Shown: positions 15,701 to 18,074 of the stretch, piece after piece | Layout: each line of letters starts with the position of its first letter | Position numbering within the stretch: position 1 is the first letter of the stretch | Origin: Prasinococcaceae sp. CCMP 1430 | Lineage: Eukaryota > Prasinodermophyta > Palmophyllophyceae > Prasinococcales > Prasinococcaceae | DNA: 30,614 bases | Reading direction: 5' to 3' | NCBI GenBank assembly: GCA_013416795.1 | Contig: RQSC01000974.1 | Location: 57,002-87,615 of the forward strand | The notes under the pieces: model-generated | Database searches by the model: none | Seen by the model: the letters and a program-made list of their open reading frames with translations, nothing else | Told to the model about the DNA's origin: nothing | Program-made: the position numbers and the translations under genes

Positions 15701-16382
15701 CAACCTCATGCCGGACATGATCAGCCGCCTGAGTACCAACGATCAGCTGAGCGACGATGCCTTCCGCCGCATCATGAAGTTCCTGGTTGCGTTCCTAGAC
15801 AAGGACCGCCACGCCGAGGGGCTCAGCGATAAGCTCTGCTCGCGTTTCGCCAATGCGCGCGAGCCGCGCGTGTGGCGCAACCTGGCCTACGTGCTCAGCC
15901 AGCTCGCCCTCACCGAGAAGGCTGTCAAGCGCATGGCCGACCAGTTCAAGAACTACGCCGAGGCGCTGCTCGACCCGGAGGTGGCCGAGCTTTTCAAGGC
16001 GGCGCTCGGCAGGGCGCGCCGCTTCGCTTCGAGCGACAAGAAGAGCGCCGTCGAGGAGCTCGAGGAGCGGATCGCCAGCCACATCGCACAGGACGCTGGC
16101 GTTGACCTTGAGCAGGAGCAGGAGGGCGGTGAGCAAGCCGAGGCCGCCGCAGACGCTGCGGACGCGGGCGCCGAGGCCGATGAGGGTGAGGCGAAGGAGG
16201 TGGAAATGGACAAAGAGGTTGAGGGCGCAGAGGAGAGCGCTGAGGACGAGCCACCCAAGGCCGCAAAAGCGAGGAGTCGCGCGAGCAGCAAGGCGAAGAC
16301 GGGACCCAAGGAGGAGAGGGCGGCGGCTGCGCCCAAGCGACGCACGAGTAGACGGGCGCTGGCGGAGAACCAGGCGGCGTGA
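12762..16382 (+). CDS. Condensin complex subunit 1 (CAP-D2/NCAPD2), 5' exon(s) missing
   Basis: 1206 residues of HEAT-repeat protein are visible. The N-terminal part (FAACYAIVGRFDELEPHSK, then HRCALKCYVFLLHHL) matches the Cnd1 N-terminal domain. Around residue 925 is the family signature KNALLVLTHLILNDMMKVKG, followed by LARLFFSELAAKSNSPVYNL and RRIMKFLVAFLDKDRH. Together these identify the CAP-D2 subunit of condensin I, which helps compact mitotic chromosomes. The last 90 residues are an acidic then Lys/Arg/Ala-rich tail. The coding sequence begins right after a C-tract and AG (one base is N at 12759), an intron acceptor in phase 0, so the true start is upstream. CAP-D2 is usually 1250-1400 residues, so only about 50-150 are absent. 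No intron interrupts the rest. It converges on the ALKBH fusion gene. Confidence 0.93.
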   Translation: MFAACYAIVGRFDELEPHSKARVLDALSSNLAVLNAGAATTLASSTSHMDEDVAAHRCALKCYVFLLHHLAAEQWATVGAAAAAAAAVAAPRGAKKAKKKAATGEWEWEAQCDKVLRPLAGAVDLNFDRMFAAGQIEDAFVMLFTKTAVAALEQPAVARLAACRAASQHVLASAAVRLGQRDGVVNALMQTLHRHEHMPPIVAGICAHGAAALGDTGLALEALQEVSTTPQTDFVRDAAAAKHVGLFLTELADTMPKLVGTNLALLLPHFGCEAYGLRSGLVQMVGQLVIHIQVIFGDGASAKQEEVRVKSKQALLDLLIDRARDSNAFARAQCLRTWAMLCEAEALPIGHWQLVTEMAIGRVSDKASVVRRAAMQLVGTLLTYNPFGPSLPVESLEGSLQSYAERLEAEEAKIAETTPDEDDADEAVRGLHEAIEEAKSSDDEEEAQVGGKGADQLAAMRALVASLRTAVSFATSLRDALPAVVGILRTGTTLDQVEAVSTLILMQQFTVDGSDVSVKEALPLIFSREPSVRDAVMDAATTLYVPQGLDSQAAVLLSKFVATATLGELASMEEILAQMIRTERFPERIASSLWDMVRSTQLSASERSAALGVIGMIAGEMPETVNIDLVVEVALGPLARKDALLARRGALVLERAAAGDAASGLAADHAAFGALSAIIAGEPAAHLSDAAWYPACEQSLAAVYALHQSPETLIAGLITTMAADVFGEDGASLASVSTRALARFLFVLAHGGLRHLVFVEDTAKVVRREMLAREKAEEELAEKEGRKLPSKAETGAPTVDAIIDQVREGIDSEMMAATPGQVNLMGMFAPLVVHVVTTPALMAADPSLRSSAMLCLAKMMAIDGDFCEAHMATLCNTMQNSKEESVRSNCIVAIGDLAMRFPNVLEPWTSRVYACLRDPTLAVRKNALLVLTHLILNDMMKVKGLISDMAERLEDESPRVVGLARLFFSELAAKSNSPVYNLMPDMISRLSTNDQLSDDAFRRIMKFLVAFLDKDRHAEGLSDKLCSRFANAREPRVWRNLAYVLSQLALTEKAVKRMADQFKNYAEALLDPEVAELFKAALGRARRFASSDKKSAVEELEERIASHIAQDAGVDLEQEQEGGEQAEAAADAADAGAEADEGEAKEVEMDKEVEGAEESAEDEPPKAAKARSRASSKAKTGPKEERAAAAPKRRTSRRALAENQAA

Positions 16383-16593
16383 GCGTGTGCGCCCGTGCGC
16401 GCCGCCCGACGTAGCTAGGTCCACGTCCGGAGATGGGGACGCCCGCTTGGTAAGGCACAGCAGCACAAACGCGTGCGTGCGTGCTTCTTATGTGTGCACA
16501 TGCACTGGCCCACGCGCGTTATCGGCGATCTTCCCCGATCCGGCGGCGGCGATTTTCTCCAGCCCGGCGCTGTGCGCCACTGAAAGTGAGGCG
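16383..16593. other. Convergent 3'-3' spacer
   Basis: About 210 bases between the condensin stop and the ALKBH fusion stop. No long homopolymers and no gene. It is too short to hide a FAD-binding photolyase domain downstream of the fusion protein. Confidence 0.6.
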
Positions 16594-17853
16594 TCAGCAA
16601 ACGCCATCCCTGGGTAGCCACGTCGGCCAAGGCGGCAGCGCGAGCGGAAGAGGCGCATCTTCGGATCGTTCGAGGTTGTGCGCTCTCCCTGCGTGCCACA
16701 AAGTTCGCCCGCCGCCGTGGCCACCACCGCACGGTCGGACGCGACCTCCTGGAAGCGAGCGGAGAACTTTGCTCACCATCGCCGCCTCCGCCTCCTTGCC
16801 GGGAAGCTCATGGAAGCGCACTTCCACTGCCGTGCCGCCTTGTGTTGGCAGGTGGTCGGCCATGCGACGGGCTATCGCTGCCAGCGCTTGCGCCGGGTCG
16901 CCCCTGCGCACAACAAGCCCGCCTCCACGCGCTCTCAAGTCCGCGCGCAGCGCTTCTACACCCTCGACCTCAATGTCACCTCCGTCCTCCACAACCAACA
17001 CGCTCACCAACGCACAGACACGCGGACGGCCACGGTCGCTGCCTAGGTCAGCGTACAGAGCGTTGTCTTCGCATGAGCCAAGCGGACTTCGATGCCACGC
17101 GAGCACTGCTCTCGACGGCAGCGGTGACTGCGGGAGTGTCATTGTGGCCTCTGATTCGTGTGTTGCGGCCGCCGCCTCGGCCCCTTCGCTCGCCAGCGAG
17201 CGGAAGACAAGAGACGCACGCGGCGCAGTCGTGCGCGGCGCCTCTGCCGCCAACACAGCGTGCCTCCACACATCCGCCGCCGTGCCGTCGACGACCAGCG
17301 CGGATCTGGGCTCCAACACAAGCTCCTTGTACGCGCCCCCGTCGGATTCGTCTCTCACGCCTCCCTGGCCGTCGGCCACAAGCGCCTCGCCAAAGGCCAC
17401 ACGCGCCGCCGCGGGCCCCAGGCTAACGACCGCGAACGGCCTGGCGAAGGCGCGCGAGTCGATGTGCGGCGGAAGCCAGTTGCTGCCTTCGTACATGTTA
17501 ACGGAGCACGCCGTCGGGTGGGAGGGAAGGAGGCCTCTGGCGTGCAGCGCCTCCGCAATGTCCGCCATCGCCGGCGGCAAGGAAGGCATGCCGCGCGCCT
17601 CCACGCGGTTGGCGTGCACGCGCGCACCGTAGCACAGCTGCTCGCGCCCCTGCCCCCTCCGTGCCATCGCCGGCGGCGGCGGCGCGTAGCACCCCGACGG
17701 AAGGCCGCCCGCACGGCCCGCACACAGGGCGGCGCTCGCCTCGGCACTCGCACGCTCGCATAGCGCGGCGCTAAGGAACTCCTCCACCAGCAGCAGCCCC
17801 TCTGGGCCGGGCTGGCGGAAGGGCTGGCCGCCGGCGACGACGCCCACGCCCAT
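16594..17853 (-). CDS. ALKBH9/10-type 2-oxoglutarate/Fe(II) oxygenase fused to a photolyase/cryptochrome-like N-terminal domain
   Basis: The ATG at 17853 (context GCCATGG) gives 419 residues in one uninterrupted frame; the frame extends to an ATG at 18024, but that part looks non-coding. Residues about 15-222 match plant ALKBH9/10, the relatives of the RNA m6A eraser ALKBH5: ACSVNMYEGSNWLPPHIDSR with iron ligands H130 and D132, RPFAVVSLG, DVWRHAVL with H198, and R212/R218 in the RASLVFR segment that should bind 2-oxoglutarate. From residue 248 the protein resembles the alpha/beta antenna domain of photolyases and cryptochromes: AVLAWHRSPLGSCEDNAL, LVSVLVVED, VEALRADLRARGGGLVVRRG, RFHE, and weakly TLWH...ED...LPPW. 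The FAD-binding domain is absent. A possible GTGAGC donor at 16776 leaves the last 60 residues open. The gene is divergent from the S49 peptidase gene. The ALKBH call is strong; the photolyase-domain call is good but needs a profile search. Confidence 0.78.
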   Translation of the reverse strand: MGVGVVAGGQPFRQPGPEGLLLVEEFLSAALCERASAEASAALCAGRAGGLPSGCYAPPPPAMARRGQGREQLCYGARVHANRVEARGMPSLPPAMADIAEALHARGLLPSHPTACSVNMYEGSNWLPPHIDSRAFARPFAVVSLGPAAARVAFGEALVADGQGGVRDESDGGAYKELVLEPRSALVVDGTAADVWRHAVLAAEAPRTTAPRASLVFRSLASEGAEAAAATHESEATMTLPQSPLPSRAVLAWHRSPLGSCEDNALYADLGSDRGRPRVCALVSVLVVEDGGDIEVEGVEALRADLRARGGGLVVRRGDPAQALAAIARRMADHLPTQGGTAVEVRFHELPGKEAEAAMVSKVLRSLPGGRVRPCGGGHGGGRTLWHAGRAHNLERSEDAPLPLALPPWPTWLPRDGVC

Positions 17854-18047
17854 GGCCGCGCGCGCGAGGTGCCCGTCGCCCTCCCGCCAGCAAGGCCCTC
17901 GAACCTGCCGCCGCGCACGCGCTTGACCAACCCCTCCTCGGTGAGCTCCAGAGGTCGCAGCGCACGCCGCCGCCCGCCGCAACGCCGCCGCGCGCGCGCG
18001 CGCGCGCGAACCCTGATAAACCATCACCCTAATAATGACCCAACCAT

Positions 18048-18074
18048 AACCCTAAACCCTAACCCTAACCCCCA
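18048..18074. repeat. Telomere-like CCCTAA(A) tract
   Basis: AACCCTAAACCCTAACCC and following bases contain mixed seven- and six-base telomere-type units. The tract is only about 27 bases and lies between two genes, so it is an interstitial tract or a telo-box-like promoter site, not a chromosome end. Confidence 0.75.

Follow-up and report, generated by a model that had tools for sequence, protein, structure and literature searches.

The minus strand of the window (the whole stretch of 30,614 nucleotides that we analysed, contig C144:57002-87615 of a 24.5-Mb, 145-contig genome, G000) carries a gene that probably encodes an ALKBH5/9/10-like Fe(II)/2OG oxygenase fused to a diverged, non-photochemical remnant of a photolyase/cryptochrome N-domain, kept as an accessory module. 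From the sequence comparisons we put the probability of this reading at roughly 55%. AlkB-type enzymes are a family that removes methyl groups from RNA or DNA, and photolyases are light-driven DNA-repair proteins. For the oxygenase half we expect demethylation of a nucleic acid, most likely RNA, with Fe(II) and 2OG as cofactors. The C-terminal module may have been taken over from a CRY-DASH-like gene and would act as a non-photochemical accessory in protein or nucleic-acid binding, or in domain stability.

The light-harvesting proteins of this genome are of the chlorophyll a/b type and match green-lineage LHC chains in the PDB; the gene is nuclear, in a green-lineage photosynthetic microalga. 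No ALKBH-photolyase fusion was found in the literature searched, and no fusion relatives of the encoded protein (P0001) were found in viral contigs, prokaryote genomes, phages or the PDB. If expressed and conserved, the gene would give an ALKBH demethylase an undescribed domain partner and would show a photolyase domain of the antenna type put to new use in the absence of its flavin partner. It would then be a concrete candidate for studying the control of RNA or DNA demethylation in algae. As it stands, it is an unusual domain combination and not a demonstrated light-controlled enzyme.

Gene model and neighbourhood

The sequence-only reading had located the gene correctly at 16594-17853 and had left out its strand. 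The frame runs uninterrupted for 419 codons (477 if counted from the first GTG) and is single-copy in the genome; its parts are listed in Table 1. The plus strand of the same interval contains stops and gives no relevant Pfam match or comparable domain, and coding on that strand was rejected for this reason. Over 16770-17160 the other two minus-strand frames have 7 and 4 stops and the ALKBH frame has none; the probability that 130 codons stay open by chance is near 0.02, although frames of the plus strand are open as well. The ALKBH frame (frame 0) also has the top minus-strand codon score across nearly all of residues 1-355.

Table 1. Features of the fused frame. Positions refer to the window, residues to the 419-aa product.
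Feature	Position	Strand	Details
Whole frame (P0001, 419 aa)	17853..16594	minus	ATG 17853, TGA 16596-16594
AlkB-type Fe(II)/2OG core, residues 71-218	17200..17643	minus	PF13532; N119, Y121, H130, D132, H198, R212, R218
Linker, residues 219-248	17110..17199	minus	no GT 17208-17128; internal methionine (Met 238)
Photolyase/cryptochrome N-domain-like region, residues 249-331	16861..17109	minus	beta1-alpha1-beta2-alpha2-beta3-alpha3; hhalign, MSA-guided model
Strongest photolyase-like segment, residues 297-331 (EGVEALRADLRARGGGLVVRRGDPAQALAAIARRM)	16861..16965	minus	PF00875 positions 53-87, E=4e-5
Residues 332-365	16759..16860	minus	possible beta4-alpha4 in model; sequence support not significant
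Tail, residues 366-419	16597..16758	minus	coding signal lost; pLDDT < 50

There is no stop codon between the ALKBH and photolyase-like halves. The last GT ahead of the photolyase-like block, at 17208, falls within the oxygenase's conserved V-F-R strand, and the one after it is at 17128, so that a GT-AG intron cannot begin in the linker stretch between them; an intron starting there was rejected on this ground. Because a usable splice donor is absent between the halves, a single fused gene is the simplest gene model. The GC content at third codon positions (GC3) drops at the junction: it is about 0.85 over the ALKBH part and about 0.65 over the photolyase-like part, as would be expected if the tail were of different (foreign) origin or less constrained.

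The stop at 16594 may not be the true 3' end, since the coding signal is gone past about residue 365 and, beyond residue 375, the codon score of frame +1 exceeds that of the main frame. Residues 366-419 are probably a non-conserved tail, or else the real 3' end lies elsewhere. Another open frame, some 86 codons long (EVASDRAVVATAAGELCG...), occupies 16491-16778 on the minus strand, in frame +1, following a GTGAGC...TTCCAG pair 28 nt apart; this frame has no Pfam match. An intron between these two signals (16776-16749) was discarded as too short; it would lead into this other open frame, which lacks a Pfam match.

On one side the gene is flanked by a convergent condensin Cnd1 gene on the plus strand that ends at 16382, and on the other by a divergent Peptidase_S49 (SppA-like) gene; a Glycos_transf_4 gene is also nearby. 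At 18038-18072, in the interval that separates the ALKBH gene from its divergent SppA-like neighbour, we noticed a brief series of plant-type telomere repeats (CCCTAAA/CCCTAA). The match spans 13 bases, more than chance would be expected to give, and could represent either a telo-box in a promoter or a telomeric repeat of the interstitial kind.

The oxygenase core

ALKBH5 and the plant proteins ALKBH9B and ALKBH10B are m6A RNA demethylases of the Fe(II)/2OG AlkB family. By its motifs, the algal oxygenase is plausibly closest to this ALKBH5/9/10 RNA demethylase type. Pfam assigns PF13532 to residues 71-218 with E=1.9e-9 and 38.5 bits, above the cut-off of 31.2. The iron triad H-x-D...H (H130, D132, H198) and the 2OG pair R-x5-R (R212, R218) are intact and lie where the sequence-only reading had put them; N119 and Y121 are also present. 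The algal protein shares with ALKBH5, ALKBH9B and ALKBH10B the AlkB fold, as judged by PF13532, and the N-x-Y, H-x-D, H and R-x5-R elements at nearly the same spacing. Unlike them, it has a C-terminal photolyase-like extension; m6A in RNA would be its putative substrate by motif resemblance.

Elsewhere in the genome there are about ten AlkB-type loci (13 exon-level matches). Among all AlkB-type loci of the genome, the pattern P-P-H-I-D...F-x-R-P-F occurs only in the fusion gene, where it reads P-P-H-I-D-x3-F-x-R-P-F, a motif that we take to resemble plant ALKBH9. In the PDB, a phmmer search with the protein found no more than weak similarity to ALKBH6/8 (E 0.11 and 0.19). In human ALKBH5, the 2OG and iron residues are N193, Y195, H204, D206, H266, R277 and R283 (PMC9289625). 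All seven are matched in the algal protein, with identical intervals in N-x-Y, from Y to H (9) and from R to R (6), while the two loops are extended by 6 and 3 residues.

A whole-genome profile search found no match to the m6A writer family MT-A70 or the m6A reader family YTH; because it was run without a positive control, this absence is only a caution, a weak negative. For MT-A70 nothing appeared even at E <= 10, and the ALKBH, LHC and photolyase families were found readily in the same genome. If the absence is real, the alga may be without the canonical m6A machinery.

The photolyase-like region

The C-terminal part had been described as a photolyase N-domain for which a PF00875 match was to be expected. 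The comparisons point to a photolyase resemblance beyond chance or composition for residues ~249-331 (beta1 to alpha3), and it is this portion of the claim that stands; the whole domain does not align. PF00875 is matched with E=4.1e-5 for the protein and E=1.4e-5 for the domain alone, at 24.0-25.5 bits, just below the curated cut-off of 26.6 bits, and the alignment spans just 34 of the 164 profile positions. When all six frames of the genome were searched with this profile, the gene scored E=2.4e-4. A home-made HMM of 36 photolyase sequences gives the domain 16.6 bits, and none of 5000 shuffles scores above 2.6. With hhalign, the match to 23 photolyase N-domains reaches a probability of 94.4% over 76 columns (the gene's own ALKBH half, used as control, 0.3%), and its score of 48.8 compares with 12.0 +/- 2.2 (max 21.0) in 300 shuffles. 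This alignment pairs LAWHRSPLGSCEDNALYADL with L-x-W-F-R-x-D-L-R...A-L at profile position 2, followed by helix 2, strand 3 and helix 3.

Pairwise comparisons give z values of 5 to 6.6 against several independent photolyases, including L030, L040 and P0003. The latter is a close relative from within this genome, where it belongs to a complete DASH-like photolyase gene that has its FAD domain. When 220,000 residues of this genome's six-frame ORFs were scored for photolyase similarity, only the genuine photolyase loci and the fusion gene matched. The first block by itself is marginal (p = 0.01 to 0.07); against P0003, in a post hoc comparison, its pairwise shuffle p is 0.0015. Residues after 331 behave as noise in the photolyase comparison (p = 0.39 to 0.58), and a phmmer search of the domain against the PDB gave no photolyase. 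End-anchored alignment of the flanks was uninformative because it penalises the natural linker deletion. The earlier statement that spacing and residue classes agree is not confirmed for a complete domain, of which half is recognisable and in which the motifs are eroded, and we found no support for RFHE as a photolyase motif.

A single-sequence AF2 prediction of the C-terminal part reached a pLDDT of 40, with no photolyase among the Foldseek matches listed and no match that could be interpreted. Guided by an alignment of nine photolyases, AF2 produced a beta-alpha-beta-alpha-beta-alpha-beta-alpha model with a core pLDDT of about 80. Its best Foldseek match is the Thermus photolyase 2j07 (E=1.9e-4), the family having been imposed by the alignment, and VIA-align gives this photolyase-biased model a Z of 9.5 to Arabidopsis CRY3. 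Other HUP-fold proteins score alike in VIA-align, with ArtA in the top row (Z 9.9). Since the alignment imposed the photolyase family, the guided model suggests that the C-terminal residues are compatible with a photolyase fold and is not proof of one.

The module resembles the N-domain of CRY-DASH and photolyases (PF00875) in its predicted beta1 to alpha3 portion of a Rossmann/HUP-like fold and in the motif L-x-x-L-R-A-x-G-x-x-L-V-V-x-x-G-D-P. It differs from them in lying C-terminal to another enzyme, in its shorter linker before helix 2, and in having no R-x-D-L-R, no N-x-x-Y-x-P(x4)R-D, no recognisable second half and no FAD_binding_7 domain.

Light sensing and the origin of the tail

In photolyases, the N-x-x-Y-x-P(x4)R-D segment helps to form the antenna site. 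This segment is unrecognisable in the tail, the R-x-D-L-R signature and the N-x-x-Y-x-P motif are eroded, and the tail does not amount to a full domain of five strands bearing W-F-R-x-D-L-R and N-x-x-Y-x-P. Pfam detects no FAD-binding domain (PF03441) in the frame, although the DASH-like photolyase gene L005 of the same genome has one; that this domain is missing and that a condensin gene converges on the fusion gene had both been rightly noted from the sequence. As the FAD domain, the R-x-D-L-R signature and the antenna-contact segment are all lacking, photochemistry is not expected. Light sensing by the fusion protein is therefore not supported by its sequence, and the same losses speak against the light-linked or cofactor-sensing module proposed in the sequence-only reading. 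A structural or binding role for the tail, or none, is more likely than photochemistry.

The photolyase-family ancestry of the tail would fit a light- or flavin/folate-gated RNA demethylase, as first suggested, and photoreceptor domain fusions exist in algae, for example the dualchrome of Pycnococcus (PMC12558739). However, with the FAD domain absent, the antenna-contacting segment unrecognisable and the light-related residues all lost, we give this explanation next to no credence. It is also highly improbable that the gene stands for a class of enzymes conserved among algae, namely ALKBH RNA demethylases under the allosteric control of an orphan photolyase-type alpha/beta domain that binds nucleotide, folate or deazaflavin and makes RNA demethylation respond to redox or light state. 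Two adjacent genes, in which Met 238 would start a photolyase-like protein of its own and the link to ALKBH would be due to an assembly error or to missed splicing or a missed stop, seem very unlikely. The methionine does lie 11 residues ahead of the photolyase-like block and GC3 shifts near the junction, but the halves have no stop between them, the linker offers no GT donor, and an independent 180-residue gene placed 3' of ALKBH without a spacer would be unusual.

A serious, if unlikely, alternative is that an ordinary ALKBH gene reads into a decaying DASH-like photolyase gene that has lost the FAD domain and the 3' half of the N-domain, so that the tail would be a relic without selected function. 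The recognisable stretch is limited to beta1 to alpha3, R-x-D-L-R is eroded, GC3 is lower and the coding signal fades past about residue 365, and the nearest relative in the genome, P0003, belongs to a complete DASH-like photolyase gene. Yet about 120 photolyase-like codons persist without a stop or obvious frameshift where the other minus frames have stops, and helix 2, strand 3 and helix 3 retain a good match. If this explanation holds, the gene would be a minor case of gene fusion and decay. It is also conceivable, though rather unlikely, that an Ala/Arg-rich alpha-beta-alpha piece of an ALKBH C-terminal extension mimics photolyase helix 2 to helix 3 by coincidence. The sub-threshold Pfam score, a strong signal confined to ~35 residues of GC-rich composition, the missing photolyase in the phmmer search of the PDB and the marginal first block would all agree with this. 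Against it, composition-preserving shuffles fall far short of the observed scores, the E-value of the whole-genome six-frame search is low, and a collinear N-terminal block with W-x-R aligns to profile position 2. An oxygenase carrying a diverged photolyase N-domain remnant as an accessory is the explanation that we favour.

Other fusions have been described in microalgae. The dualchrome of Pycnococcus provasolii is a phytochrome-cryptochrome fusion; like it, the present gene, also from an alga of the green lineage, combines photolyase/cryptochrome-family sequence with a domain unrelated to it (PMC12558739). Dualchrome has kept a light-sensing cryptochrome, whereas here only a degenerate half N-domain is left. 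For microalgal ALKBH networks, a nucleotide-diphospho-sugar transferase domain and a HotDog domain have been reported (PMC11312118).

Further members of the photolyase/cryptochrome family were observed in this genome. In L005, on the minus strand of G000:C82, long low-complexity stretches separate the PF00875 and FAD_binding_7 domains. L007 (G000:C108:98143-101349) is a partial second copy of the plant-type cryptochrome-like gene L004 with in-frame stops upstream, and looks like a duplicate in decay or a misassembly. The sole phytochrome match of the genome is on contig C69, and the cryptochrome matches lie on other contigs.
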